A stretch of 64,000 nucleotides of DNA. It comes from an uncultured Erysipelotrichaceae bacterium (GTDB lineage: Bacteria > Bacillota_I > Bacilli_A > Erysipelotrichales > Erysipelotrichaceae). The translations under genes and the position numbers were made by a program. Numbering within the stretch: the stretch's first letter is position 1; each line of letters opens with the position of its first letter. The DNA is taken from positions 1-64,000 of the forward strand of contig CADABS010000003.1 of assembly GCA_902786245.1 (NCBI GenBank), read 5' to 3'. Shown here piece after piece: positions 33,185 to 49,246 of this stretch. A model generated the notes under the pieces. That model ran no database searches. It was not told where the DNA came from and saw only the letters and a list, made by a program, of their open reading frames with translations.

Positions 33185-34651
33185 TTACAGACCAAGCCGG
33201 ACATACTGCTCTGCAGGTGCTTCGGCTTTTTTCATTTCTTCCTTCAGAAGCCTGATCATACAGGCTTCCGTTTCCGGATCATCGAGGGGATGAACCTGCA
33301 GCGGATCCTTCTGCCGGTCAAACAGCATCGTGCCGTACTGCACATGGCTGCTGTAGCGGTAGTAGCGTTTTCTGTCATAGCGCTCATCCCCCGGAATTTT
33401 CAGTACAGGCACATGATCCGCAAAGGCAAAGTCTCTGCACAGCAGATCGTCCGCCTGGGTGATTTCTTCTTTTTTCATGTATTTTTTGATATGCGCAGGC
33501 ATCAGGGTGTACTGGTACAGCGGTGCGTTGTCTCTGTTTCCGGCCCGCATATATGTATACCTGCCGTCCGTCACATTGACATGCATGCCGAAGTATCCGT
33601 AGAGAATGGAATCATGGATCTTTTCTTTCCCTGCCAGCAGCCCCAGAATCGATTCTCCGGTCATATGTCTGCCTTTTTCAACACCGAAGAAATCCAGTAC
33701 CGTTGGGGCAATATCCGGTGTCTGAGCCAGTCCGTGACAGACCGTTCCGTCCGCTTCCGGATGGCGGGGATCATGCAGGAAGAACGGAATATTTGCCAAT
33801 TCATCATAGACCGGCGGATAGTTCTTTCCGACATATCCTTTTTCTCCCAGCAGGAAACCGTGATCCGTATTGACAATTAACATCGTGTCTTTCCACAGAT
33901 CATGTTCATCAAAGAAATCCAGGATCCTGCCAAGATATGCATCGCACATGGTGACGAGTGCTTTGTAATTGCGGATAAAGCCTCTGACCTTGCCCTGTTC
34001 ATCTGTTTCATATCTGCGGTACTCCGGCCAGTCATCCGTGCTTTCTTCTCCCGGATAAAGATCTTTATATTTCTGCGGCACAAAGAACGGCTCATGGGGA
34101 TCGAAATATTCCAATTGCAGAAACCATCTGTCCTGATCCGCATGTTCCTGCAGGAACTCCATGCCTTTTGCAAAACTGCGGACATGGCATGTCTCTGCCT
34201 CTTCTGCCATTGCTCTGCGGTTGATTGCATCCTGCTGCCGCGATGTCAGCGGTCCGTCAAAGTCTGCCGGATCTGCCTTCCATGCGTCGCCTTCCTGTCC
34301 CCGGACAAATTCAAAGGAACTGTAATTCGTCCAGTAATTCGCACCGCCTGCCTCCCAGTAATGGCAGTGGTCTGTCACCAGATGGCTCCAGATCCCGTGT
34401 TCTCCCAACATGGCCGGCATCGATTCATCAAAGGGTTCAAACGGGCTCCAGCTGCGGTGCAGAAAGTTCAGTCTGCCGGTATGCAGTTCCCTTCTGGCCG
34501 GCATACAGGGCATACTGCCGGTAAAGAAATGATCAAAGACAGCGGAATGTTCCGCCAGGCGCTTAAAGTTCGGTGTATATGTATCCCTGCATCCATACGG
34601 TTCCAGAAACCGTTTATTCAGTGAATCATACATGATCATGACAGCTTTCAT
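33185..34651 (-). CDS. Sulfatase (S1 type), paralogue C
   Basis: A 488-residue sulfatase related to paralogues A and B: MKAVMIMYDSLNKRF, Cys49 in SMPCMPARRELHTGR, RSWSPFEPFDESMP, and metal site NTDHGFLLGEKGYVGK. The first metal-site residues are conserved. It is cytoplasmic by the lack of a signal peptide. GGAGG lies eight bases before the ATG. It stands alone on the minus strand, convergent with the LarA-like gene and divergent from a decayed Gfo/Idh gene, so it may be a stray member of the locus with its own promoter. Confidence 0.92.
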   Translation of the reverse strand: MKAVMIMYDSLNKRFLEPYGCRDTYTPNFKRLAEHSAVFDHFFTGSMPCMPARRELHTGRLNFLHRSWSPFEPFDESMPAMLGEHGIWSHLVTDHCHYWEAGGANYWTNYSSFEFVRGQEGDAWKADPADFDGPLTSRQQDAINRRAMAEEAETCHVRSFAKGMEFLQEHADQDRWFLQLEYFDPHEPFFVPQKYKDLYPGEESTDDWPEYRRYETDEQGKVRGFIRNYKALVTMCDAYLGRILDFFDEHDLWKDTMLIVNTDHGFLLGEKGYVGKNYPPVYDELANIPFFLHDPRHPEADGTVCHGLAQTPDIAPTVLDFFGVEKGRHMTGESILGLLAGKEKIHDSILYGYFGMHVNVTDGRYTYMRAGNRDNAPLYQYTLMPAHIKKYMKKEEITQADDLLCRDFAFADHVPVLKIPGDERYDRKRYYRYSSHVQYGTMLFDRQKDPLQVHPLDDPETEACMIRLLKEEMKKAEAPAEQYVRLGL

Positions 34652-34784
34652 CTCAGATTCCTCCACGTATACAATACATGCATGCAGAAAGCCGTACTGC
34701 CCGGGAAGCGGAATCTTATTGTCACAAAAGCGACATCTGCAGGAAAAGAAAGAACTCCTGTATAATCAGAAGAAGAAAGAGGCT

Positions 34785-35437
34785 GTGAATAAAATACGAT
34801 ACGGGATCATATCCTGCGCATCCATCGTCCCCCGCTTCGCGCAGGGAATGGAACTGACTGAAACAGGAACCGTCTGTGCGATAGCGTCCAGGGATCCTGC
34901 AAAAGCACGGAAACTGGCAGAGGAACTGTCCATCCCGAAAGCATACGGAGATTACCAGGCACTGCTCGATGACCCGGACATTGATGCAGTATATATCCCG
35001 CTGATCAACAGTATGCATTATCCATACGCAAAGAAAGCACTGCTTTACCGGAAAGCATGTACTGACGGAAAAGCCGTTCGTCATACACAGCCGGGAAGCG
35101 GAAGAACTGTTCACGATTGCCCGGGAAAAGAAACAGTTCTCTGGCGGTATGGGCTGTATCCCAGGATGTACTCTTTGACAACGGCCTGACAATATACTTT
35201 GACCATAGCCGCATCTTTATCCCGGATTTCTGGAAAGCCGGCACTGCCGTGATCGAAGCAGAAGGAAAAGAACAGGAAACCATTCACTGTCCCTGTTCCT
35301 TTGAATTCCAATTTGAACTTTCCCATTACAATGCATGTATCCGGGAAGGCAGATGGTCCAGCCCCATCACCGCTCCTGAGAAAACAATCCGGTATATCCG
35401 GTTCTGTGAAGATTTGAAGAAAGCATGGTCAAAGTAA
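34785..35437 (+). pseudogene. Gfo/Idh/MocA oxidoreductase remnant
   Basis: From a GTG at 34785 the frame reads NKIRYGIISCASIVPRFAQG, a Rossmann start, down to HYPYAKKALL. The expected GKHVLTEKPFVIHSREAEEL continues in another frame, and a third frame then supplies LAVWAVSQDVLFDNG and FIPDFWKAGTAVIEAEGKE to a TAA at 35437. Two frameshifts and an internal loss of roughly 100 residues show that it is dead. Intact members have about 320-350 residues and oxidise sugars or sugar acids with NAD(P). It was probably once part of the glycan locus. Confidence 0.8.
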
Positions 35438-37116: not shown

Positions 37117-37977
37117 ATGCGGATGAAAGATGTACTGGAACAGGATAAAGTCACATTGTCTTTTGAAGTGTTTCCCCCGAAACGGGCAGACGGTTACGCT
37201 GCAGTGGAAACTGCCGTGGAAAAGATTGCGGAACTGCATCCCGATTTCATGTCCATCACCTACGGTGCCGGCGGCTCTACAGCCGGTTTCACCATGGAAA
37301 TCGCAAAAACGCTGAAGCAGAAAAACAATGTTACAGTCCTGCCCCATCTCACCTGTGTCAGTTCATCCCGGGAATACGTGAGCAGTATGCTGGATCAGTT
37401 CAGAGAAGCAGGGGTTGAAAACATCATGGCTCTGCGCGGCGATCTGCCTCTGGAGGGAGAAATACTCCATGACTTTGAACATGCCGAAGACCTGATCCGG
37501 TTCATCAAAGAACGCAGCGATCTGTGCATCGGCGGTGCCTGCTATCCGGAAGGACATATCGAAAGTGCAAATAAAACAGAAGACATCGGATATCTCAAAC
37601 GCAAGGTCGATGCCGGATGCGATTTCCTGACGACCCAGATGTTCTTCGACAATACGATCCTGTATAACTTTCTCTACCGGATCCGGGAAGTTGGTATCCA
37701 TGTGCCGGTCCTTGCCGGCATCATGCCGGTCACGACCGCAAAACAGCTTAAAAGAAGCATCGCCCTTTCCGGCACGAATGTACCGGAACGTTTCCGGGCG
37801 ATCGTCGATCATTTCGGCGATGATCCCGAAGCGATGAAACAGGCCGGCATCATCTATGCCTGTGAACAGATCATCGATCTGATTGCCAACGGCATTACCC
37901 ATATCCACATTTACAGCATGAACAAGCCGGATGTTGCGGCTGCCATCATGAACAATCTGAAAGGCATTCTCAAATGA
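37117..37977 (+). CDS. metF: 5,10-methylenetetrahydrofolate reductase
   Basis: A 286-residue MetF: SFEVFPPKRADGY at the N-terminus, TYGAGGSTAGFTMEIA, LPHLTCVSSSREY, NIMALRGDLP, and AGCDFLTTQMFFDN. It interconverts methylene-THF and methyl-THF on a TIM barrel with FAD. AGGAGG lies seven bases before the ATG. Its stop overlaps the reactivation-domain gene by four bases. In this context it can run toward methyl-THF for methionine synthesis or, with a THF-dependent demethylase nearby, in the oxidative direction. Confidence 0.95.
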   Translation: MRMKDVLEQDKVTLSFEVFPPKRADGYAAVETAVEKIAELHPDFMSITYGAGGSTAGFTMEIAKTLKQKNNVTVLPHLTCVSSSREYVSSMLDQFREAGVENIMALRGDLPLEGEILHDFEHAEDLIRFIKERSDLCIGGACYPEGHIESANKTEDIGYLKRKVDAGCDFLTTQMFFDNTILYNFLYRIREVGIHVPVLAGIMPVTTAKQLKRSIALSGTNVPERFRAIVDHFGDDPEAMKQAGIIYACEQIIDLIANGITHIHIYSMNKPDVAAAIMNNLKGILK

Positions 37978-38636
37978 GACGCCCTGATGACAGAGAAATC
38001 CTGCGCTATCTCAGCTATAAAGGAATCACCGGTGAAACAGAAGAAATCAGAGAACTGATCCGGCGCTGCCGGGATCTTCTGGAACCGGTACTGCGGCCCC
38101 GCAGCTGTGTCAGGTTCTTTGATGTCACCTGTGAAGAAAACCGTCTGTGCATCGGTTCCCTGAAGACTGACAGCCGCAGCCTGTACAGAAACATGAAGGG
38201 ATGTACACAGGCAGCCGTCATGGCCTGTACCCTGGGCATTGAAACAGACCGCCTGATCCAGAGAAAGCAGCTGACATCGATGAGCGAATCCGCCTGCCTG
38301 GATGCCATGGCTTCCGCATATATTGAAGCCTGGTGCGATGAAGTCAATGAACGCATCCGCACAGACGCAGCCAAAGAAAACCTGTACTGCCGTCCCCGCT
38401 TTTCACCTGGATACGGCGATCTGCCCCTTGCCATGCAGAAAGAAATCTTTTCCCTGATGCCTGTCACGAAGGAAACCGGCATCACCCTGACGGACAGCTG
38501 TCTGATGATACCTTCCAAGTCGGTCACCGCCATCATCGGCATGTCTATCGAAAACAGAAACTGCATCCTGCAGGGATGTGAAGAATGTACGCAATCTGCC
38601 ACCTGCGCATACAGCCGCAGCGGAGAAAATATATGA
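37974..38636 (+). CDS. Stand-alone methionine synthase reactivation-domain protein
   Basis: This 220-residue protein matches the C-terminal AdoMet-binding activation domain of cobalamin-dependent methionine synthase. Its RFSPGYGDLPLAMQ and KSVTAIIG are the usual signature, and Cys residues cluster near the end (CILQGCEECTQSATC). The domain re-methylates oxidised cob(II)alamin with AdoMet. It overlaps metF and metH by ATGA on both sides, so the three are made together. The split arrangement is typical of Bacillota whose MetH lacks this domain. Confidence 0.88.
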   Translation: MRRPDDREILRYLSYKGITGETEEIRELIRRCRDLLEPVLRPRSCVRFFDVTCEENRLCIGSLKTDSRSLYRNMKGCTQAAVMACTLGIETDRLIQRKQLTSMSESACLDAMASAYIEAWCDEVNERIRTDAAKENLYCRPRFSPGYGDLPLAMQKEIFSLMPVTKETGITLTDSCLMIPSKSVTAIIGMSIENRNCILQGCEECTQSATCAYSRSGENI

Positions 38637-41026
38637 AAACAATACGTGAAATACTGAATCATGAATGGATCTTCTTTGACGGAGGATCGGGAACACTGCT
38701 GCAGGGCATGGGTCTGCGCGGCGGCGAACAGAGCGAAACCTGGAATCTTTCCCATCCCGACAGGATCAAAGAACTCTATAAAGGCTATCTGAATGCCGGA
38801 TGCACGGTATTCAATACCAATACCTTCGGTGCCAACCGCTTCCATGATCCGGAAAACCTTGAAGAAACCGTCCGGGCAGGTGTCCGCCTAGCCCATGAAG
38901 CACGCACAGAAACAGGCAGACAGGACAATGCCTATATTGCCCTGGATATCGGTCCGACCGGAAAACTGCTCGAACCGATGGGAGATCTTTCCTTTGACGA
39001 TGCCGTCGATGCATTCAAAGAAGTCATCCGGTACGGATTGGAAGAACATCCGGATCTGGTTCTGATCGAAACCATGAGTGACAGTCTTGAGGCAAAAGCA
39101 GCCCTGCTTGCCGCAAAAGAATCCTGCGGTCTGCCGGTATTCATCACCTGCACCTTTGACGCAAAAGGAAAGATGTTAACCGGCGGAACCGTACAGTCGC
39201 TGATTCCGATGCTGGAAGGTCTCGGTGCGGATGCGGTAGGCATCAACTGTTCGCTCGGACCCCGGGAGATGATCCCGATCATCGAAGATCTTGTAAACAT
39301 CGCTTCGGTGCCGGTCATCGTCAATCCCAATGCCGGCCTGCCTGAAACAAGACACGGCCGTACGGTATATAAAATCGGTCCGGAAGAATTCGCTTCCTGC
39401 ATGAAGGATATCGCTCTGCTCGGTGTACAGGGTGTCGGCGGATGCTGCGGAACAACACCGGAACATATCCGCAGAGTGATTGATGAAGTCAGTTCTCTTC
39501 CGTTTGCACCGCAGACCGTGAAGAATCATACCTATGTGACATCCTACGCATCGGCAGTGGAAATATCGCAGACACCCGTCATCATCGGCGAACGGATCAA
39601 TCCGACCGGCAAGAAGAAATTCCAGCAGGCACTGCGTGACAGAAACATTGAATATGTTCTCTCTCAGGGTCTGGAACAGGAAGATGCCGGAGCGGATATT
39701 CTCGATGTCAATGTCGGCGTTCCCGGTATTGATGAAAAGGCAATGATGGAAACCGTCATCGGCAGACTGCAGGCAGTGACATCTCTGCCCCTGCAGATCG
39801 ATTCCTCCGATCCGGCCGTACTGGAAAGAGCCATGCGCATCTACAACGGCAGACCGATGATCAACTCGGTCAGCGGCAAACAGGAATCCATGCATGCCGT
39901 ATTCCCGATTGCGAAGAAATACGGTGCCCTCATTGTCGCATTGTGCCTGGATGAAAACGGCATTCCCGCAACAGCCGACGGCAGGATCGCCATTGCCGAA
40001 AAGATTATTCATACCGCCGAAGAATACGGCATCCGCAGAAACAGTCTGATCATCGACGGTCTGACAATGACCATCTCCTCGGATACCTCTGCCGCAAAAA
40101 CGACCCTGGAAACGATCCGGCGGGCCAAAGAAGAACTCGGCTGCCAGACGATCCTGGGAGTATCCAATGTCTCCTTCGGTCTGCCCCAGCGTTCCCTGGT
40201 CAATGCGAATTTCCTGACCATGGCCATGGCAAACGGACTTTCCTGTGCAATCATGAATCCCAATAATACCGAGATGATGGCTGCCTTTATCACATCAAAA
40301 GCATTATTGAATCATGATCCGCAATGCCAGACATATATCGCTTCTTTTGCCGGGACAGAGACGCAGACCAGAACCCTGCAGAAGGCAGAACAGACAGTGA
40401 CAGCAGATTCCCTGCGGGCATGTGTCACCGGCGGTCTCAGCGAACAGGCAGTTCTGAAAACAAAACAGGCTCTGCAGGATGGCAGAGACCCGATGGACAT
40501 CATCAATAACGATCTGATTCCTGCCCTCGATGAAGTCGGACAGGGTTTTGAAAAAGGAACACTGTATCTGCCTCAGCTGCTGATGAGCGCGGATGCGGCC
40601 AAGGCAGCCTTTGCGGTCGTACGCGAAAGCATGCATACCGAAAATCAGACATCAGCCGGCAGGATCATCATGGCTACGGTCAAAGGCGATATCCATGATA
40701 TCGGCAAGAACATCGTCAAGGTTCTTCTGGAAAACTATGGCTATGATGTGATCGATCTGGGCAAGGACGTTCCGCCGGAAACGATTGTCGATACTGCCGT
40801 CAAAGAGAATATTCAGCTGGTCGGCTTATCCGCATTGATGACAACAACGGTCGGTGCGATGGAAGAAACGATCCGGTTGATGCGTCAGAAAAAGCCTGAT
40901 ACAAAGATTATTGTCGGCGGTGCAGTCCTGACCCGGGAATACGCCGATCAGATCGGGGCGGATGCCTATGGCAAAGATGCCATGGCAACGGTCCGCTATG
41001 CGGACAGTATCTTTAAAAACAAATAA
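38633..41026 (+). CDS. metH: Cobalamin-dependent methionine synthase without activation domain
   Basis: A 797-residue MetH. The homocysteine/zinc domain (about 1-300) has Cys206 (INCSLGP) and Cys271-Cys272 (GGCCGTTPEH). The folate domain (about 320-570) has GERINPTGKKKFQQAL. The cobalamin cap and Rossmann domains (about 580-797) carry His688 in GDIHDIGKN. It ends there, and the reactivation domain is the preceding gene. The start at MKTIRE follows from the ATGA overlap. It transfers methyl from methyl-THF to homocysteine and requires the B12 uptake encoded at 48-49 kb. Confidence 0.95.
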   Translation: MKTIREILNHEWIFFDGGSGTLLQGMGLRGGEQSETWNLSHPDRIKELYKGYLNAGCTVFNTNTFGANRFHDPENLEETVRAGVRLAHEARTETGRQDNAYIALDIGPTGKLLEPMGDLSFDDAVDAFKEVIRYGLEEHPDLVLIETMSDSLEAKAALLAAKESCGLPVFITCTFDAKGKMLTGGTVQSLIPMLEGLGADAVGINCSLGPREMIPIIEDLVNIASVPVIVNPNAGLPETRHGRTVYKIGPEEFASCMKDIALLGVQGVGGCCGTTPEHIRRVIDEVSSLPFAPQTVKNHTYVTSYASAVEISQTPVIIGERINPTGKKKFQQALRDRNIEYVLSQGLEQEDAGADILDVNVGVPGIDEKAMMETVIGRLQAVTSLPLQIDSSDPAVLERAMRIYNGRPMINSVSGKQESMHAVFPIAKKYGALIVALCLDENGIPATADGRIAIAEKIIHTAEEYGIRRNSLIIDGLTMTISSDTSAAKTTLETIRRAKEELGCQTILGVSNVSFGLPQRSLVNANFLTMAMANGLSCAIMNPNNTEMMAAFITSKALLNHDPQCQTYIASFAGTETQTRTLQKAEQTVTADSLRACVTGGLSEQAVLKTKQALQDGRDPMDIINNDLIPALDEVGQGFEKGTLYLPQLLMSADAAKAAFAVVRESMHTENQTSAGRIIMATVKGDIHDIGKNIVKVLLENYGYDVIDLGKDVPPETIVDTAVKENIQLVGLSALMTTTVGAMEETIRLMRQKKPDTKIIVGGAVLTREYADQIGADAYGKDAMATVRYADSIFKNK

Positions 41027-41029
41027 AAT

Positions 41030-41060
41030 GCCTGCGGTATCGATGGATACTGCAGGCTTT
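41030..41060. terminator. Bidirectional terminator between metH and folD
   Basis: The 12-bp stem GCCTGCGGTATC/GATACTGCAGGC with loop GATG is followed by TTT on the plus strand and ATTTTATTTG on the minus strand, between convergent metH and folD. Confidence 0.85.
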
Positions 41061-41070
41061 CATTGCTGTG

Positions 41071-41949
41071 CTACTCTGCGGCAGGTACGTTATTCTTTTC
41101 GTACTGTCTCTTTGCGGCCTGCGCAACATGATCCGCAAGAACCGTGGAAGTGACAGATCCGACACCGCCCGGTACCGGCGTGATGTATCTGACGATCGGT
41201 TCGACTTCCTCAAAGAGCACATCGCCGCACAGCTTCCCCTTTTTCTCATTCCAGGAAATACCGACATCGATGACCGTCTGCCCTTCAGAGAAATACTCTT
41301 TTCCGAGCATTTCCGGCTGTCCGACTGCCGCAATGACGATATCCGCCTTTCTGGTAACAGACGGAAGATCGACGGTTCTTGTATGGCAGATCGTTACGGT
41401 GGCGTTGCGGTTTAATAACATCATCGCCAGCGGTTTGCCTACCACAAGTGAACGGCCGACCACAACGATGTTTTTGCCTTTGATTTCGATTCCGTAGTAA
41501 TCGAGGATTTCAATCGCGGCCTGGGCTGTGCACGGCGCGAATCCCTGCGGCTTGTTGATGAAGATACCTGTCAGCGATGCGTCAGTGCATCCGTCGATGT
41601 CTTTTTCAAAGGCAATCATCTTTCTTGCCTTTTCGGAATCCAGACGCTTGGGCAGCGGCCTAAACATCAGGATGCCGTGGACACTTTCATCTTCGTTGAG
41701 CGACTGCAGGATCCCATCGAATTCTTCCTGTTCCGTCTCTCTGGGCAGGGTGACATATTTTACTTCGATACCGGCATCCGCACAGCGCTTGGAAGCGCCT
41801 TTTTCATAGGAAATATCCGATTCATTCTCACCGACTCTGAGAATTGCCAGCTGCGGTGTGATACCGTGCTGCTTCAGTTCCTGTACCGCTGCCTGGGTCC
41901 TTGCCCGGATCGCAGCGGCTGCTTCTTTTCCCTTCAGTAACTCAGCCAT
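41071..41949 (-). CDS. folD: Methylenetetrahydrofolate dehydrogenase/cyclohydrolase
   Basis: A 292-residue FolD, which converts methylene-THF to formyl-THF via methenyl-THF. Visible motifs are the Tyr-x-x-x-Lys pair in SYEKGASKR, HGILMFRPLPK, DIDGCTDASLTG, and the nucleotide-binding VVGRSLVVGKPLAM. The cyclohydrolase Tyr-Lys pair is intact. AGGAGG lies seven bases upstream, inside the end of fchA, with which it overlaps by eight bases. With FchA it handles the oxidised C1-THF pool. Confidence 0.95.
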   Translation of the reverse strand: MAELLKGKEAAAAIRARTQAAVQELKQHGITPQLAILRVGENESDISYEKGASKRCADAGIEVKYVTLPRETEQEEFDGILQSLNEDESVHGILMFRPLPKRLDSEKARKMIAFEKDIDGCTDASLTGIFINKPQGFAPCTAQAAIEILDYYGIEIKGKNIVVVGRSLVVGKPLAMMLLNRNATVTICHTRTVDLPSVTRKADIVIAAVGQPEMLGKEYFSEGQTVIDVGISWNEKKGKLCGDVLFEEVEPIVRYITPVPGGVGSVTSTVLADHVAQAAKRQYEKNNVPAAE

Positions 41950-42574
41950 TGATCAGCCTCCTGACAATATTGTCATATGTCTGCAGTGCTTTTTTGCTGT
42001 AAGTATCCAGCATTTCTCTGCATTCCGCATTCATCGCATCCGCAAATTCTCTGTCTTTCATCAGCCGCGTATTGACGATGACATTCATATATCCGCCATA
42101 CAGTGCACCATGGGCAAGCATGACCGATGTCGCCGCATCCGATACCGCCAGTTTCGATCCGATGACGGCAAGTCTTTCATCCAGTTCAATGACCCTTGCG
42201 CACAGCTTCATGATATGACGCGGCGGCTGGGCTGCTTCATGAAGGCAGCTTTCCATCTTTTCGGCATATCCTTCGCTGTCCTTCGGCAGCGCATATGCTT
42301 TTGCCAGCGGCTCAAACGCTTCCGCATCTTCATCGATGCACTGCAGAAGATCCTTCCGCAGCGTATCCGCTTCGTCTTTGATCGCGGTCAGTTCTTCTGT
42401 ATAGTCAAGAAACTTCTTCTTTCCGATTGTCAGATTCGTTACCATTTCCGCAAGAGAAGCCCCCAGTGAGCCGGCCAATGCGCTGACACCGCCTCCGCCC
42501 GGAACCGGATCCTTTGAAGCTGCTTTTTCCGTAAAGCCATAGAGATGATCTTTGTATTCTGTCCATTCAGACAT
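41942..42574 (-). CDS. fchA: Formiminotetrahydrofolate cyclodeaminase/methenyl-THF cyclohydrolase
   Basis: This 210-residue helical protein belongs to the FTCD C-terminal family, which forms methenyl-THF from formimino-THF or acts as a cyclohydrolase. Conserved DPVPGGGGVSALAGSLGASLAEMV lies at residues about 22-45 (shown here only in part: PGGGGVSALAGSLGASL). AGGAGG precedes the ATG. It overlaps folD. In acetogens and purinolytic or glycine-using anaerobes this pair feeds formyl-THF; no formyl-THF synthetase gene is in the window. Confidence 0.92.
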   Translation of the reverse strand: MSEWTEYKDHLYGFTEKAASKDPVPGGGGVSALAGSLGASLAEMVTNLTIGKKKFLDYTEELTAIKDEADTLRKDLLQCIDEDAEAFEPLAKAYALPKDSEGYAEKMESCLHEAAQPPRHIMKLCARVIELDERLAVIGSKLAVSDAATSVMLAHGALYGGYMNVIVNTRLMKDREFADAMNAECREMLDTYSKKALQTYDNIVRRLING

Positions 42575-42760
42575 ACTGCGTCCTCCTGTTATCGTTCTGC
42601 TTTCAGTTTATATGCAATTGCCGGATTCGGAAATCCTTTATTTGCAGGATTCTCCCCTGCCGAAACCGTACAAAAACATGATTCCCGCATTTCTGACGGT
42701 TATTTCTCTGTAAAAAACATTGTTTCTGCGGATTATGGACATTCATCTTTTTTCCTAAGA

Positions 42761-42781
42761 TATAAATGAATTCCCGGGAAA
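42761..42781 (+). promoter_or_regulatory. -10 region and TTCCCGGGAA palindrome before the 71-residue protein
   Basis: TATAAA at 42761-42766 is a possible -10, with TGGACA 19 bases upstream. Directly downstream, TTCCCGGGAA (42771-42780) is a perfect 10-bp palindrome. The same core TCCCGGGAA occurs upstream of the SDR operon at 44801-44809. This suggests shared control, perhaps by the PucR-type regulator between them (inference). The rest of 42575-42822 is an AT-rich divergent promoter region. Confidence 0.4.
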
Positions 42782-42822
42782 GAATTCAATAAAAAAACAT
42801 AATTATTAACAGGAGGAAAATC

Positions 42823-43038
42823 ATGGCATTATCATTAGATTCCAAAATCAGAGACATCATGCGTTCCGAAGAAGGCAGAGCAGTCATGGAAAAATACGCA
42901 CCGGGCTCCACAAAGGATCCGCGTATGAAGCTGGTCGGCGGCCTGACATACCGCAAGCTGCTGTCCTATCCTGAATCCGCTGATGTCGCAAAATTCGCAG
43001 ATCAGCTGGATGCAGATCTGAAGGCCTGCTCCAAATAA
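42823..43038 (+). CDS. Small conserved-looking protein, 71 residues
   Basis: A small soluble protein (MALSLDSKIRDIMRSEEGRA..., then VMEKYAPGSTKDPRMKLVGGL) with no membrane segment. A strong SD (AGGAGG) and its own promoter and terminator show it is a real gene. The pattern of a short helix, MxKYxPG, then basic MKLVGG and a C-terminal amphipathic helix resembles a stand-alone helical domain. I do not recognise a function. Its promoter shares a palindrome with the SDR operon, so it may be a partner of that pathway. Confidence 0.8.
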   Translation: MALSLDSKIRDIMRSEEGRAVMEKYAPGSTKDPRMKLVGGLTYRKLLSYPESADVAKFADQLDADLKACSK

Positions 43039-43045
43039 TCCACTG

Positions 43046-43072
43046 AAAAAGATGCGATTTGCATCTTTTTTT
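43046..43072. terminator. Bidirectional terminator
   Basis: AAAAAGATGC and GCATCTTTTT enclose a five-base loop, with further T on the plus strand. It lies between the convergent small-protein and PucR-type genes and serves both. Confidence 0.9.
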
Positions 43073-44571
43073 CATGTCTGCTTGATCAGTTTCTCCGTTT
43101 CCACCGCTTTCAGTATGATTTCCAGAAGCAGCCGGTCATCCGAATTATCCAGATTGATCTGCAGATCCCTTTCAATTCTTGCAATTCTGTCGATCAGGGT
43201 CGAGCGGTGTACATAAAGCCTTTTGGCTGCGGAAGTAAAGGACATATTCTCCTCCAGGAATACCCGCAGTGTTTCAAAATACGAAACGCCGGAACTGCTG
43301 TCATGTTCGAGAAGTTCTTTCAGTCCTTTGGGAAAATACGCTTCTGCCGGCAGATCGCCGAGAGAATTGATGATCAGCGAAGTCAGTGCATAATCCGAGA
43401 AATAATACAGTTTCTCTTCCGGCTTCATCAGCTGTCCGTTGCCCAGTGCCGAGAGTGCCTGGGCATAGTAGATGCGGATCGAATACAGGTCCGAGAAACC
43501 TTCCGATACACCGGCAGTCAGATTCATACTCTGTACGAATTCATTCAGTTTTTCTCTGGTTCCTTCCCTGTTTTCCATAAAGCAGACCATGTCCGGTTCC
43601 GTGATCAGGGCACAGCTGTTCGGGAAGGTTTCCTCAAACAGATCGCATATATAGCTGGCCGGTATCCGGTTTTTTCTGCCGCTGTATTCCAGGCAGACAC
43701 AGGCATATTCAGTTTTGCGGTTGGCCGCATTCAGGGCCCATCTCTGCGAAGGAGTGATCGGCTGTTCTTCCAGCAATGTCCTGAACAGCGCTTTCATCGA
43801 AGACTGTTCATTGTACAGGATCTGCGGGTTCTTCCGGATCGCCTGTTCCAGCATCCAGGCAAGAAACTCTGCCAGCCGCTCCTCGCCGGCATCGAAATCC
43901 GCATCGCCCTGCCAGATACAGAGACATCCCTGGTACTGGTCATTCTGGTCGAACAGATTGACATTCAGCGTCTTTACCCCGTTCACATCGAGCCGGATGG
44001 CTCCCTTTTTCTCGGTCATCAGATCGGATTCATGGAGAAAAGACGACAGATTCTGTGAACTCAGAAAACCGTTATTATCCGCATCCCAGTGGGAAAGCAG
44101 ATCTTCCTGTGTCACTGCGATGATCCGGAATGAAGCATCCAGCACGATCATCGGCTTATTGATGATTTTCTCGGAACATTCCAGGATGGAACGGATATCT
44201 CCTTCATTGAGCAGATACCGGTACAGTTCTTTCTCCCAGCTGTCATAGCGGTCATAAATATCCTGGATCGCCTGAAAGACGCGGAAAAAATCCGCTTTGT
44301 TATGGACCGTGATCAGACACATCCGGTCGCTGTAGTATTTCATGCGGATGTTTTCGCCGATGCATACAAGCACGGAATTCCTGCGGATCTGCGGCCGGTG
44401 CGGCAGATGCTCTGCCGTCGCCAGATACAGACAGTCCGACGCAAAAACATCTTCGCTTTCCATGTAGAACTGCGGCCTGCCCAGAACCAGTTCCGTGCTG
44501 CAGGGGCCGCTGATTGAAACATTGTATTTCTGCTTCAGTCCGCGGTAAATGATATCTCCGTTCAGTTTCAT
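43072..44571 (-). CDS. PucR/CdaR-family transcriptional regulator
   Basis: The 499-residue regulator ends with a PucR-type helix-turn-helix: FLEENMSFTSAAKRLYVHRSTLIDRI, then RIERDLQINLDN (shown in part). A GGDEF-like middle region and an N-terminal sensory part of about 250 residues precede it. PucR/CdaR regulators activate pathways for purines, sugar diacids and various organic compounds. I start it at MKLNGD; the TATAAT of its promoter ends only six bases before this ATG, so the mRNA may be almost leaderless. It is transcribed away from the SDR operon and is the best candidate for its control. Confidence 0.88.
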   Translation of the reverse strand: MKLNGDIIYRGLKQKYNVSISGPCSTELVLGRPQFYMESEDVFASDCLYLATAEHLPHRPQIRRNSVLVCIGENIRMKYYSDRMCLITVHNKADFFRVFQAIQDIYDRYDSWEKELYRYLLNEGDIRSILECSEKIINKPMIVLDASFRIIAVTQEDLLSHWDADNNGFLSSQNLSSFLHESDLMTEKKGAIRLDVNGVKTLNVNLFDQNDQYQGCLCIWQGDADFDAGEERLAEFLAWMLEQAIRKNPQILYNEQSSMKALFRTLLEEQPITPSQRWALNAANRKTEYACVCLEYSGRKNRIPASYICDLFEETFPNSCALITEPDMVCFMENREGTREKLNEFVQSMNLTAGVSEGFSDLYSIRIYYAQALSALGNGQLMKPEEKLYYFSDYALTSLIINSLGDLPAEAYFPKGLKELLEHDSSSGVSYFETLRVFLEENMSFTSAAKRLYVHRSTLIDRIARIERDLQINLDNSDDRLLLEIILKAVETEKLIKQT

Positions 44572-44577
44572 ATCTTC

Positions 44578-44609
44578 ATTATACAGCACCCGTCATTTTG
44601 TAGGTGCTG
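44578..44609 (-). promoter_or_regulatory. PucR gene -10 box and inverted repeat
   Basis: TATAAT lies at 44583-44578 (minus strand). Immediately upstream, CAGCACC (44584-44590) and GGTGCTG (44603-44609) form a perfect 7-bp inverted repeat with a 12-bp spacer, in the place of the -35/-10 spacer. It is a candidate operator for autoregulation or divergent control. The rest of 44610-44837 shows no gene. Confidence 0.45.
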
Positions 44610-44798
44610 AATTTGTTTCTGAAATCATAATTTACGGGTATCCGGCATGAAATTTATTTTTTATCATGTTTTCTTTTTCTTCAAAACAGCAGAATCCGGT
44701 ATATGCCGCCCGGCAAATAGTCCTGTTTCCATACTGAAAAAACCATGTTTCCTCGTCTTTCTGCAGCTCTGCGCTCTTTTTACAATAAAGATGTATTC

Positions 44799-44810
44799 AA
44801 TCCCGGGAAT
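44799..44810 (+). promoter_or_regulatory. TCCCGGGA palindrome before the SDR operon
   Basis: AATCCCGGGAAT, about 28 bases upstream of the SDR ATG, shares its core with the element before the 71-residue protein. A TACAAT at 44781-44786 could be the -10. Confidence 0.4.
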
Positions 44811-44837
44811 ACGCTTTTAAGCGAGGAGGAAAACAAT

Positions 44838-45743
44838 ATGCCCTTTACACCTGGCGACAGATCCATGCTGGAAGGATATCTGCGCGATGCCCGTCCTTTT
44901 GCGGATATGTTCTCCGTCAAAGGAAAAACCGCAATCGTTACCGGCGGCTCTTCCGGTCTGGGTTTCGATATCACGCTGCGTCTGCTGCAGGGCGGCGCCA
45001 ATGTCATGATCGCATCCTATTCCGAACTGGAACGTGATACGGCATTGGAACTGCTGAAAGAAGCAGGCTTTGATGAAACAGTCGGCTTCTGTCTGACCGA
45101 TGTATCCAAAGAAGAACAGGTCAGCCGGATGGTGGATTACACAGTCGAAACATTCGGCTCGGTCGATATCTACGTCAACTGCGCTGCTACATGGAACTAT
45201 GCAAAGATCTATGATCTGCCGGCAGAAGACCTGCAGAAGGTATTCTCTGTCAATGTATACGGTGCCTTCTACGGTCTGAAATATGTCAGCCGCTATATGA
45301 AGGAACATGAGATTCCCGGCAAGATCGTCCTGATCTCGTCCAACTGCCCGATCATGCCGTATCCGGTATTCGGCGGCTATCCGCACTACGCTTCCAGTAA
45401 GGCAGCCATCATGGGTCTGACTGTGGAAACAGCGAAGGAACTCAAGCGCTTCGGCATCATGGTCAATTCGGTCGCCCCCGGCGGCATGGTTACACCCGGC
45501 TCTGCCGGCAACCTGGCCAGTGAAAGCCTGACCGAAGAACAGCAGGATGAATTCTATGATGAACTGATGGTCTGGCAGACAGACGGACAGATGCAGGTCG
45601 ATCAGATCGGCATCATGGCTTATACACTGTGCACACCGGTGGCAGACGGAATTACCGGTGAAGTCATCATGGTCGACGGCGGCGCTACCCATAATATCGT
45701 GAAATTCCAGCCGGCGATCGACGCCTATCCGGAAGAGGAGTAA
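44838..45743 (+). CDS. Short-chain dehydrogenase/reductase (SDR)
   Basis: A 301-residue classical SDR. The nucleotide site is TGGSSGLGFDI at residues about 34-44, NCAATWNYAKIYD follows (NNAG equivalent, NCAA), the catalytic Ser lies in VLISSNCP, and Tyr-Lys in YPHYASSKAA. The C-terminus has VNSVAPGGMVTPG. An N-terminal extension of about 25 residues precedes the Rossmann fold. GAGGAGG lies eight bases before the ATG. It is first in an operon with the Cys-rich protein and the THF methyltransferase, so it likely oxidises or reduces the demethylated product or its precursor. Confidence 0.9.
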   Translation: MPFTPGDRSMLEGYLRDARPFADMFSVKGKTAIVTGGSSGLGFDITLRLLQGGANVMIASYSELERDTALELLKEAGFDETVGFCLTDVSKEEQVSRMVDYTVETFGSVDIYVNCAATWNYAKIYDLPAEDLQKVFSVNVYGAFYGLKYVSRYMKEHEIPGKIVLISSNCPIMPYPVFGGYPHYASSKAAIMGLTVETAKELKRFGIMVNSVAPGGMVTPGSAGNLASESLTEEQQDEFYDELMVWQTDGQMQVDQIGIMAYTLCTPVADGITGEVIMVDGGATHNIVKFQPAIDAYPEEE

Positions 45744-45749
45744 TAATCT

Positions 45750-46979
45750 ATGACAAAGAAAATCGATGAAAGAATCCCCCAGGATTCCGGCAACGGAGCT
45801 GCGTTTAAAACATACAATGCAGTACAGTCCCCCTGGAACAAACTGATGTCCTACCAGGACGCCCTCCACTACGCTTCCAGATTCGAAGCAGTGCTGAGTG
45901 CAGCGGTAGCCCAGGCATACCGGATCATCATTCCCGACTATGCGACAAGAGCCGATGAAATGTGCAAGGAAGCCTACGGCAGACTGCTCTACACGGGTCT
46001 GAACTATCCCAACGATGACGGCTTCGGCATCCATCCGTTCATGTGCGGCTCCTACCCCGGAGCACTGATCGGCGACAAGGGCGATGACGCCCTGCTCATG
46101 TGCGGCAGATGCCAGGACTTCGGCACATACAGATGCGAAAAAGAACTGGATGTCTGCGACTGGGACATCTGCGGATCGGAACTCTGCCGGGCAACGACCA
46201 TGTCTCTGCAGGGACAGGCCGATGCGACTGAAACAAGACACAGAAAAGGCCATAAGCTGGACTATCTGATGGTCGAAGCCAAAGGCTGCGGCGACAGACA
46301 CTGCCGTATCATCGCGGAAAGCCGTGAGAAATACCCTGCACCTGAACATGCTCTCTGGGAATCCTTCGGACCGGCTGTATCTGACGAATACAAGAAGTAC
46401 ACAGAGGAAGAAGACTGTGTTTCTGAATCCATGATGTTCAGAGAAGAATGCGATTATCATTTCGTCAACGGCACGAACAATGAAACAGATTCCTCCAACC
46501 AGATGGTCAATCTGTCCACTGCCGCTTCTCTGTACCTTCTGCCGGCGATCGACAATGCTGCAAAGCTCGGCTATACAACCCCTGAAAACGCAGAATGGAT
46601 CAAGAAGTGCGTTCTCGAAGCTGCCGGAAAAGCGATGTTCGGTGAAAGATATGCAATCAGGGCATGCCGGGAATGGCTCGGTGTTCCCAATACCATCGGC
46701 GAAGACGGAAGACTGCTCGGCGGTGTCATTGAGATGCTGCTGCAGTCCCTTGTCTGCAATTATGAAATCGAAGCCTTCAACAAAGATGAAGTCATCTATG
46801 TCATCGACCGCGGCGGTCTGGCAATCACAGGCACCCAGTCCCTGGTAGAAGCACACCTCTATATGTGGCAGGGCATGGTCAAAACACTGGTCAACGCACA
46901 GTGGTCGGTCTGGGAAGAAGATTCTCCGAAAGGCAAGATGCGGATCAAAATCGCTAAGAAGATCGACAAGTTCATGTAA
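45750..46979 (+). CDS. Cysteine-rich protein of unknown function
   Basis: I do not recognise this 409-residue soluble protein with confidence. It has 15 cysteines, eight of them between residues 118 and 185 (MCGRC, RCE, VCDWDICGSELC, GCGDRHC). This looks like a metal or Fe-S site. The pattern CDW...ELCRATT...GCGDRHCRI recalls the Cys-rich core of V4R or L-2-amino-thiazoline-4-carboxylate-hydrolase-like proteins (tentative). The C-terminal half (residues about 250-409) is mostly helical. GAGGAG overlaps the stop of the SDR gene, and the THF methyltransferase follows 14 bases on. It may be the substrate-handling subunit. Confidence 0.6.
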   Translation: MTKKIDERIPQDSGNGAAFKTYNAVQSPWNKLMSYQDALHYASRFEAVLSAAVAQAYRIIIPDYATRADEMCKEAYGRLLYTGLNYPNDDGFGIHPFMCGSYPGALIGDKGDDALLMCGRCQDFGTYRCEKELDVCDWDICGSELCRATTMSLQGQADATETRHRKGHKLDYLMVEAKGCGDRHCRIIAESREKYPAPEHALWESFGPAVSDEYKKYTEEEDCVSESMMFREECDYHFVNGTNNETDSSNQMVNLSTAASLYLLPAIDNAAKLGYTTPENAEWIKKCVLEAAGKAMFGERYAIRACREWLGVPNTIGEDGRLLGGVIEMLLQSLVCNYEIEAFNKDEVIYVIDRGGLAITGTQSLVEAHLYMWQGMVKTLVNAQWSVWEEDSPKGKMRIKIAKKIDKFM

Positions 46980-46993
46980 GGGAGTCCGTACAT

Positions 46994-48025
46994 ATGAATA
47001 AAAACATATTTAAAGATGATGAATGGAAACGCTCTGAACACATGGCTGTCCGCGAAAACGCAGGATACTATCTGTTCACCCATCAGCTCGAAGAAGTTAG
47101 CGGTCCGGACGCAGGAAAATTCCTGGACTGGATCTGCCCCAACAACATCGCAAATCTGAAAGTCGGCAGAGACCGCTATACGACCATTCTCAATGAGGAA
47201 GGCGAAATCATCGATGACGTCGTCGTCATGCGCATGGACGAAGAAAAATACTGGGTATCCACCCTGTATGCGACAAAGCTGGATGACTGGATCTATTATC
47301 ATTCCGATGACTACGATATCGATTTCTCCGAAATCACCGAAGACTGGCATATGTTCTCTGTCCAGGGTCCCAAATCCAAAGACATCATGAACGGACTCAT
47401 CGAAGGCGGCGTCGAGGATCTGCGCTTCTTCGCCAACCGGAACGCTGTCATGAACGGCATGGATGTCATTATCAACCGGGGCGGATTCACCGGTGAAAAA
47501 TTCGGCTATGAAGTTTACTGCACACCGGATGATGCGGATGCGGTACAGGATCTGATCGATGCGGCTGTAAAGGAAGCAGGCGGAAAAGAAGTTACGGAAT
47601 TCCAGGTATTCGCCTGGACCCTGCCGACCGAAGCAGGCTTCTACTACATGCGCGATCTCAACCGGACCAACCCGTTTGAAGTCGGACTCGAAAAGAATAT
47701 CAACTGGGACAAAGAATTCATCGGCAAGGAAGCCCTTCTCAAAGTGAAAGAAAACGGTCCTGCCAGAGAGATGGTCGGATTCGAAGTCTGCGATGAAAAC
47801 GAAAACTTCTACATCCGTTCCAAGCAGTACGGCGGACCGGGTGAACCGGTATACATCGACGGTGAAGAAGAGGAAGTCGGCAGAGTATCCAAGCTCGTCT
47901 ATTCCTATGTCAAGAACGTCAATAACGGCTATATTCTCGCTAAAAAAGACAAACTGCATATCGGCGATCATATTACCATTCACGGCACAAAGTGCGTGAT
48001 TACGGAAAAGAACTGGCTCGGCTGA
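46994..48025 (+). CDS. GcvT/DmdA/LigM-like THF-dependent methyltransferase (demethylase)
   Basis: A 343-residue protein of the aminomethyltransferase fold, which moves methyl or aminomethyl groups to tetrahydrofolate. Landmarks are DRYTTILNEEGEIIDDVVV at residues about 58-76, FSVQGPKSKDI at about 119-129, GGFTGEKFGYEVY at about 163-175, and the C-terminal barrel with EEVGRVSKLVYSYVKN. No glycine-cleavage genes (gcvP, gcvH) are nearby, so a demethylase like DmdA (dimethylsulfoniopropionate) or LigM/DesA (methoxyaromatics) is more likely than GcvT itself. Its methyl-THF product can be used by MetF and MetH encoded 6-9 kb away. Confidence 0.85.
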   Translation: MNKNIFKDDEWKRSEHMAVRENAGYYLFTHQLEEVSGPDAGKFLDWICPNNIANLKVGRDRYTTILNEEGEIIDDVVVMRMDEEKYWVSTLYATKLDDWIYYHSDDYDIDFSEITEDWHMFSVQGPKSKDIMNGLIEGGVEDLRFFANRNAVMNGMDVIINRGGFTGEKFGYEVYCTPDDADAVQDLIDAAVKEAGGKEVTEFQVFAWTLPTEAGFYYMRDLNRTNPFEVGLEKNINWDKEFIGKEALLKVKENGPAREMVGFEVCDENENFYIRSKQYGGPGEPVYIDGEEEEVGRVSKLVYSYVKNVNNGYILAKKDKLHIGDHITIHGTKCVITEKNWLG

Positions 48026-48036
48026 TGTCCGTAAAC

Positions 48037-48066
48037 AAAGCAGGAAGGAAATCCCTCCTGCTTTTT
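48037..48066. terminator. Bidirectional terminator
   Basis: AAAGCAGGA pairs with TCCTGCTTT around an inner GG/CC, followed by TTTTATC. It separates the demethylase operon from the convergent ECF gene. Confidence 0.85.
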
Positions 48067-48067
48067 A

Positions 48068-48568
48068 TCATGCATGAATATACGACAATGCCTTCTGCAG
48101 CGGCTTAAACAGCAATAAGCAGATCACAAAATTGCTTACCCCATGGACAAGATCATAGGGAATGCCCGCAATCCACCATGCCACAGCCGCATTCCATCCG
48201 GCAGTCACCAATGTAAACAGCGAACAGAATGCCCCGAACAATAATCCGAATGCGCCGGCCAGAATACTGTATACCAGCGGATCCTGAGATGACGGAACAA
48301 GCACCGTGAACAGGATCAGAAGCGGCCAGATATAGAAGTATACCGCTGACCATGTCGCAATGCCCCACCACATGCACTCAAGCACTGCAAACAGCAGAGA
48401 TGCCGCAAGTGTCATTTTCCATCCGAAACGTCTGGTAAATACAATGACAAGCAAAGTGATCAGTTCGACATTCGCAATCGAATTCAGAGAGAACTTTGCG
48501 GCTTCCATAATCGCGGTCATAGCCGCTGTATAAGTGATCTGCCGCAGAACCCTTCCCTGCTCAGTCAT
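48068..48568 (-). CDS. ECF-type transporter substrate-binding (S) component, probably for cobalamin
   Basis: A 166-residue membrane protein with about five or six hydrophobic segments, the size of energy-coupling-factor S components. The DUF4430 gene before it and the cobalamin riboswitch upstream point to B12 or a corrinoid as cargo. Trp-rich loops (CMWWGIATWSAVYFYIW) are visible. It overlaps the DUF4430 gene by TAATG. The shared ECF ATPases and T component are not in this window, as is normal for group II systems. Confidence 0.78.
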   Translation of the reverse strand: MTEQGRVLRQITYTAAMTAIMEAAKFSLNSIANVELITLLVIVFTRRFGWKMTLAASLLFAVLECMWWGIATWSAVYFYIWPLLILFTVLVPSSQDPLVYSILAGAFGLLFGAFCSLFTLVTAGWNAAVAWWIAGIPYDLVHGVSNFVICLLLFKPLQKALSYIHA

Positions 48569-48975
48569 TACTTTTCATAGGCAAGACGGTAGACACCGCC
48601 GTCTTCGACCGGCTGTGTATCCGCACCGTACTGTCCCATATCCCCGTTGACATAGATTGCCCAATAGGACTGATCAACGCTGTAATCCGCTGTTTCTCCA
48701 TTGACAGTTTCAATGAACAGACCGTAATCGCCGACTGATCCCTCATAACTGAAATCTCCGGATTTCTGTACTTCATCCATCAGCTGTGACAGATATTCCG
48801 CATCTGTCTTCACGGAATATGTTTTTGTTTCACCCTTGGAATCGACGACTTCCAGTGTAACTTCCTTGGAACCTTCCTGCGCAGCCGGCTGATTGTTTCT
48901 CCAGATGAAGAACATTCCCAATGCCAGTACAAGAACAAGTGCCAGTGCGATCCATTTTTTTGCAGTGTTTTTCAT
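48568..48975 (-). CDS. DUF4430 protein, membrane-anchored, probable corrinoid-binding
   Basis: This 135-residue protein has an N-terminal signal-anchor (KKWIALALVLVLALGMFFIW) with no lipobox Cys, then the DUF4430 domain (about 45-135) ending YWAIYVNGDMGQYGADTQPVEDG. This domain resembles the C-terminal β-domain of transcobalamin and intrinsic factor. In Bacillota it often accompanies B12 transporters. The start at MKNTAKK follows GGGAGG at eight bases. It may hand cobalamin or cobinamide to the S component outside the membrane. Confidence 0.82.
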   Translation of the reverse strand: MKNTAKKWIALALVLVLALGMFFIWRNNQPAAQEGSKEVTLEVVDSKGETKTYSVKTDAEYLSQLMDEVQKSGDFSYEGSVGDYGLFIETVNGETADYSVDQSYWAIYVNGDMGQYGADTQPVEDGGVYRLAYEK

Positions 48976-49054
48976 GTGTTTTTCCTCCCTTAACAAGACG
49001 GACACACGAAAAAAACTGTTTTCGCATCTGTGTCCGTGTTTCTGATTTCCCGCA

Positions 49055-49230
49055 GTACACGTTCGGATCTGCAGGCAGGTCTCCTGGCTTGGCTGTCATC
49101 ATATCTGCCGCCTTCTCGTTTCCAATGGCATATGGCAGATACTCCTGCTTCACAGTGACGGGTTCGCTCCGGACTCTCACCGGATTCCCTTTTCAAAACG
49201 ACCAGTGCTTATGCACTCGTTTCACCTGCA
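49055..49230 (-). ncRNA. Cobalamin riboswitch
   Basis: On the minus strand the leader carries the B12 box AGCCAGGAGACCTGCC (about 49087-49072). The upstream core has GGGAATCCGGTGAGAGTCC and GAACCCGTCACTGTGA, the classic cobalamin-riboswitch blocks, and a 5' stem near 49202-49228 (AGTGC...GCACT). It precedes the DUF4430/ECF genes, so cobalamin should shut them off. Between it and the SD (49003-49042) a further hairpin, ACGGACAC/GTGTCCGT with inner CGAAAA/TTTTCG, is a candidate expression platform. Confidence 0.93.
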
Positions 49231-49246
49231 TTCCTTTTCTTCATTT

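Follow-up and report, generated by a model that had tools for sequence, protein, structure and literature searches.

The closest described systems to the locus analysed here are enzymes built on the GcvT fold. In the TMAO demethylase Tdm of Methylocella silvestris (PDB 9q59, NF053776), a Cys-metal-binding domain is joined to a GcvT-fold domain and the one-carbon (C1) unit leaves at the formaldehyde level, with release of formaldehyde (PMC12560246). LigM, DesA, BrdA and SesA share the fold and pass C1 units from aromatic substrates to tetrahydrofolate (THF). The GcvT-type domains of sarcosine oxidase alpha and dimethylglycine dehydrogenase produce methylene-THF and rely on a flavin oxidase domain, while GcvT of the glycine-cleavage system has the same fold with a conserved Asp and Glu.

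The window, a stretch of 64,000 nucleotides from an uncultured Erysipelotrichaceae bacterium, contains an operon encoding a short-chain oxidoreductase (SDR), a Cys-rich protein (CysR) and a GcvT-like protein, next to a gene for a PucR-type regulator. This cassette resembles Tdm in that a putative Cys-metal-binding protein accompanies a GcvT-fold protein. However, Tdm is one polypeptide with DUF1989 instead of a V4R-like partner, it has no SDR, and its reaction is independent of THF. LigM, DesA, BrdA and SesA are single proteins that are not part of a CysR/SDR/PucR cassette, and, in contrast to sarcosine oxidase alpha and dimethylglycine dehydrogenase, the cassette has no flavin oxidase domain.

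Gene layout of the locus

The following features were found between positions 37117 and 49244 of the window.

37117-37977, + strand, MetF
37974-38636, + strand, ORF with a MetH-reactivation domain (Met_synt_B12-type)
38633-41026, + strand, MetH, 797 aa
41071-41949, - strand, FolD, methylene-THF dehydrogenase/cyclohydrolase (PF02882/PF00763)
41942-42574, - strand, FchA, methenyl-THF cyclohydrolase (PF04961, E 1.8e-56)
42823-43038, + strand, conserved small protein of 71 aa, convergent to PucR
43072-44589, - strand, PucR-type transcriptional regulator, divergent from the operon (PF13556, E 2e-17)
44838-45743, + strand, 301-aa oxidoreductase of the classical SDR type, opening the operon (PF13561/PF00106)
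45750-46979, + strand, CysR, Cys-rich protein, 409 aa, no match in Pfam or NCBIfam
46994-48025, + strand, GcvT-like protein, predicted GcvT-fold folate-type C1 transferase, 343 aa (PF01571, E 1.5e-46)
48068-48568, - strand, ECF-S
48568-49005, - strand, DUF4430
49057-49244, - strand, cobalamin riboswitch (104 bits, E 6e-25)

All genes that the earlier note had named between 37117 and 49230 lie where it placed them; the 71-aa gene had been overlooked. The three genes that it described as an operon are closely spaced, with 6 nt between SDR and CysR and 14 nt between CysR and the GcvT-like gene. The SDR starts at the ATG at 44838, ahead of which stands the Shine-Dalgarno-like sequence GAGGAGGAAA, and it retains the motifs TGGSSGLG and YASSK. 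For PucR, the in-frame ATG at 44571, which opens the conserved MKLN, is the likely start.

The MetH of the window is split: the 797-aa protein lacks the reactivation domain and is preceded by the separate Met_synt_B12 reactivation-type ORF (37974-41026), both forming one run with MetF. At 48068-49244 the cobalamin riboswitch lies upstream of DUF4430 and the ECF S component, judged by position to be a B12 importer. Further out, at 34632-35437, a Gfo/Idh/MocA-like oxidoreductase appears to be split between frames that overlap (185 and 106 aa) and is probably a pseudogene.

The cassette is conserved in gut bacteria

GTDB contigs were scanned with CysR, which gave 57 further loci onto which the genes of the window were then mapped, with genes called by a codon-model caller. 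These loci belong to gut Erysipelotrichaceae, Lachnospiraceae and others, and the window belongs to an Erysipelotrichaceae genome of a ruminant-gut type, its nearest CysR relatives being encoded in MAGs of Solobacterium/Erysipelotrichaceae from the gut of goat, cattle, sheep and deer. PucR was found beside CysR in all 53 testable loci, the GcvT-like gene in 52 of 52 testable loci and the SDR in 55 of the 57. The operon is thus real and conserved, since a set found in nearly all 57 loci goes beyond chance, and the three genes do occur together in other genomes; their absence as a set elsewhere, which the earlier note had named as refuting its reading, is thereby disproved. No publication on this cassette was found in the literature, and as far as could be found the operon is undescribed.

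A second subfamily (L048-L055, L059), in which CysR shows 53-55% identity, has the gene order CysR-GcvT-SDR, and some of its loci carry a second SDR together with Fhs-FchA-FolD. Further-diverged CysR-GcvT pairs were found in L074, L075, L079, L080, L095 and L096. The most diverged of these, L096, keeps the 71-aa gene, the GcvT-like gene, CysR and PucR and lacks the SDR, which indicates that CysR, the GcvT-like protein and PucR form the core, and not the SDR. The gene caller picked up the 71-aa gene in 32 of the 57 related loci as well as in the window. Its product (SLDSKIRDIMRSEEGRAVMEKYAPGSTKDP...) has no match in Pfam or PDB and accompanies the cassette even in L096, with 62% identity.

One genome (G399) holds three copies. 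In the window's own phylum the only convincing match among 392 sampled genomes was that of the window itself, the only other listed match being a 51-residue stretch containing stops. In the phylum of Blautia, 3 of 398 genomes gave a convincing match. Such a patchy distribution fits an accessory catabolic trait. No transporter or additional enzyme is conserved across the loci, and because transporters vary by locus the substrate cannot be read from the neighbouring genes. The entire 12-kb block was rejected as a single functional unit, since nothing recurs outside the stretch from PucR to the GcvT-like gene and the 71-aa gene.

CysR is an undescribed protein family with a putative zinc site

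No sequence match to CysR was found in Pfam, NCBIfam or PDB, in agreement with its description as novel in the earlier note, and CysR is an undescribed protein family. As for the V4R family of Pfam, none of 10 diverse CysR members had a relevant Pfam match. AlphaFold2 models were of middling confidence for the whole protein (pLDDT 70.6) and of low confidence for the N-terminal half alone (59.3). For both models the top structure matches were TRAPP BET3, H-NOX and the V4R phenol sensors PoxR, MopR and DmpR. Foldseek gave a probability of 1.00 with a best E of only 2.7e-3, and Z reached 8.4 (whole) and 9.6 (N-terminal half), not far above the noise quoted for the tool. In these models CysR looks like two tandem domains of the V4R/BET3/phenol-sensor type, at about 35-193 and 250-409. 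Unlike the V4R sensors and BET3, it has no Pfam sequence match, its modelled domains are in tandem, and it is not fused to a regulator.

H95, C136, W138, C146, E176, C185 and C287 are conserved over all CysR subfamilies (alignment A3), and the first V4R-like domain bears conserved Cys/Glu residues. The zinc of phenol sensors has three Cys and one Glu as its ligands (PMC10715001). The order of C146, E176, C180 and C185 recalls this zinc site, which is a resemblance only, and C180 is replaced by Ala in part of the second subfamily. The Cys/Glu site of CysR probably binds zinc.

The GcvT-like protein forms its own clade

With 159.2 bits against PF01571 (gathering score 25.6), the GcvT-like protein is a member of the GcvT-fold (aminomethyltransferase) superfamily. 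It stays under every NCBIfam equivalog cut-off: 132.6 bits for TIGR00528 (GcvT; cut-off 235.85), 119 for NF053776 (Tdm; 1100), 114 for DmdA (410), 67 for DesA (800) and 64 for LigM (580). No DUF1989 is present in its 343 residues.

A tree of 23 rows was made, comprising 11 cassette proteins, four true GcvT, YgfZ, two Tdm-like proteins and domains of the sarcosine oxidase/dimethylglycine dehydrogenase (SoxA/DMGDH) type. The 11 cassette proteins form one clade (support 100/100), which excludes the GcvT of E. coli, Phaeobacter, Bacteroides and the window's own genome, as well as the Tdm-like rows. E. coli YgfZ also falls outside, on a long branch that leaves its own placement unsure. The protein therefore groups with neither YgfZ nor true GcvT, either of which the earlier note had named as refuting its reading. 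Its nearest neighbours are the SoxA/DMGDH-type domains, with weak support (88/75).

D74, D75 and E173 are invariant, and the catalytic-type Asp is found in all 11 rows. At the positions of R223 and Y101, folate contacts of E. coli GcvT (numbered without the first Met; PMC12560246), the GcvT-like proteins have V/I/L and M/F, so that both contacts are lost, just as in the SoxA/DMGDH-type rows. From its sequence, the GcvT-like protein is predicted to transfer C1 units to THF.

A role as the glycine-cleavage T-protein was rejected on the low TIGR00528 score, the separate clade and the distribution of GcvH. No GcvH was found in 9 of 20 carriers, including the complete genome of Blautia parvula, while the SHMT-family control matched in 20 of 20. 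The absence of GcvH in these carriers argues that the cassette does not serve glycine cleavage. The earlier note was right that no glycine-cleavage genes lie near the operon. They are present in the genome all the same, where a separate second GcvT, a true one, is found together with GcvH at G000:C13, away from the cassette.

Folate genes recur beside the cassette, MetF and MetH do not

Of 51 loci, 16 have FolD-FchA in the neighbourhood of the cassette and the remaining 35 have no linked folate genes. The arrangements are at least three: upstream of PucR, downstream as in L012/L046, and downstream as in L053/L055/L059. Fhs (FTHFS, 918 bits) is linked in nine loci, and in two (L046, L053) a formate/nitrite channel (FNT) comes after FolD. 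A 936-aa flavin/iron-sulfur NAD(P) oxidoreductase (cluster 9, e.g. L003 2416-5226) adjoins FolD-FchA in L003, L004, L008 and L024 and lies farther away in L021; it could act as electron acceptor.

MetF, MetH, the MetH activator, ECF-S, DUF4430 and the genes of the outer flanks were linked in none of the 51 other loci. The MetF-MetH pair of the window is most likely a chance neighbour of the cassette, and MetH may plausibly consume the B12 that is imported under riboswitch control. B12 uptake as a component of the cassette was rejected on the same count (0/51). Corrinoid-dependent O-demethylases differ from the cassette, which has no cognate corrinoid protein and activator; the sole proteins of this kind close by in the window are MetH and its activator.

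Oxidation of methyl-THF to formate would require MetF (MTHFR). Among the nine genomes with linked Fhs-FchA-FolD, no MTHFR match was found in seven (L005, L009, L012, L013, L046, L053, L056), whereas those of L055 and L059 have one. It was also absent from the genomes of L010 and L019, and present in 16 of the 25 carrier genomes checked. The SHMT-family control matched in all MetF-less genomes checked. Entry of the C1 unit as methyl-THF is therefore unlikely in these genomes, as is oxidation of methyl-THF by MetF in those with linked Fhs-FchA-FolD. As evidence for entry at the methylene level this is strong, not final, because most of the genomes are MAGs whose completeness is unknown and whose lineages are related.

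These data bear on a THF-dependent demethylase like LigM, DesA or DmdA, in which the SDR would improve a methoxy or methyl leaving group, CysR would bind the substrate and the GcvT-like protein would move CH3 to THF, the resulting 5-methyl-THF then being oxidised by MetF or used by MetH. The GcvT fold is common to the methyl-transferring LigM, DesA and DmdA, MetF-MetH and FolD-FchA are close by in the window, and MTHFR does occur in most carrier genomes checked. The absence of MetF/MetH linkage elsewhere, the genomes without MTHFR and scores far under the LigM, DesA and DmdA cut-offs speak against it, and we consider it unlikely. In the earlier note, which had raised such a demethylation, the methyl-THF could serve methionine synthesis or be oxidised by MetF with FolD/FchA. 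FolD and FchA stand as partners and MetF does not. Together with Fhs and, in two loci, the formate channel, they fit formate and not methionine as the outlet. Its wider idea of an undescribed conserved operon passing C1 units to folate probably holds, without MetF, MetH, the reactivator and B12 uptake as parts.

A putative C1-releasing module

We propose, with a probability of roughly 45%, that the cassette works as an inducible module of catabolism which releases C1 units and yields methylene-THF and then formate and ATP. The substrate would be a small dietary compound, probably hydrophobic or aromatic, with an alcohol group that the SDR oxidises (or reduces). CysR would bind this substrate and a metal, probably zinc, and act as partner of the GcvT-like protein, and together they would move a formaldehyde-level C1 unit to THF to give 5,10-methylene-THF. 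FolD and FchA could convert this to formyl-THF with a gain of NAD(P)H, and Fhs could convert formyl-THF to formate and ATP, the formate leaving through the FNT channel in some species. PucR would be the substrate sensor. Tdm offers a precedent for coupling a Cys-metal domain to a GcvT fold (PMC12560246), and BrdA one for taking a methylene group from an aromatic (PMC5547118). We infer the metal, the CysR/GcvT-like complex, the substrate class, the direction, the oxidation level and the use of THF. With low confidence, we favour the retro-aldol loss of a hydroxymethyl group beside a ketone made by the SDR, a route that needs no extra oxidant. Other candidate substrates are methylenedioxy, methoxy and N-methyl compounds.

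If the C1 unit were the methylene bridge of a methylenedioxyphenyl compound, the pair would be a THF-dependent demethylenase comparable to BrdA (berberine) and SesA (sesamin), which are GcvT-like and THF-dependent. BrdA moves the methylene residue to THF (PMC5547118), so that no MetF would be needed, and a V4R-like CysR could bind an aromatic. On the other hand, BrdA homologues work as single purified proteins that need no CysR or SDR partner, and they are annotated as LigM-like, while the GcvT-like protein scores poorly against the LigM model. This makes a demethylenase improbable.

In some diverged loci, PanB-fold proteins stand beside the CysR-GcvT pairs: three in L075 (11810-19020), three in L095 (6227-17376) and one in L023 (8194-9060). 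MFS transporters and LuxR/PucR regulators lie alongside, with further dehydrogenases in L075 and L095. Aligned to E. coli PanB, the PanB-like proteins have lost residues that correspond to the Asp/Glu metal ligands of PanB. The proteins of L075 and L095 are therefore not ordinary PanB, and the PanB-like proteins are an undescribed group; as backing for hydroxymethyl chemistry they were given little weight.

The direction could also be the reverse: methylene-THF made from formate by Fhs-FchA-FolD would be the donor, the pair would add a hydroxymethyl or methyl group to an acceptor, and the SDR would then reduce what is formed, either in a biosynthesis or to dispose of electrons. Fhs, FchA, FolD and FNT are reversible, so their linkage does not fix the direction, and L075 and L095 contain PanB-like proteins, relatives of which take methylene-THF as donor. 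This is nevertheless distinctly unlikely: the divergent PucR suggests a substrate-induced catabolism, the PanB-like proteins have lost residues that correspond to the metal-binding Asp/Glu of PanB, and no further biosynthetic gene is conserved.

It is highly improbable that no C1 chemistry takes place at all and that CysR and the GcvT-like protein are a ligand-binding or scaffold pair around the SDR. V4R and folate folds do serve as sensors or in assembly, as in YgfZ, V4R/H-NOX-type domains are mostly sensors, and two folate contacts of the GcvT-like protein are lost. Yet the linkage to Fhs-FchA-FolD-FNT and the catalytic-type Asp in every row argue for catalysis, and L096 retains the pair with PucR and the 71-aa gene where the SDR is gone, which makes the pair the core.

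Extended beyond this locus, the proposed C1-releasing module may represent a new class of two-protein, oxygen-independent enzymes, made of a V4R-type metal/substrate binder and a GcvT-fold partner, with substrate-specific paralogues (three in one genome labelled Mogibacterium), by which gut anaerobes turn plant-derived hydrophobic compounds into methylene-THF, formate and ATP. We regard this generalisation as tentative, and rather doubtful in its full scope. The proposed module itself is directly testable, since the cassette is carried by the cultured species Blautia schinkii, Blautia parvula and Fusibacillus kribbianus. If it holds true, an enzyme family so far undescribed would gain a name, and methylene-THF would replace methyl-THF as the product to expect. 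It would also give ruminant and other gut bacteria a route from dietary compounds to formate, a main substrate of methanogens.
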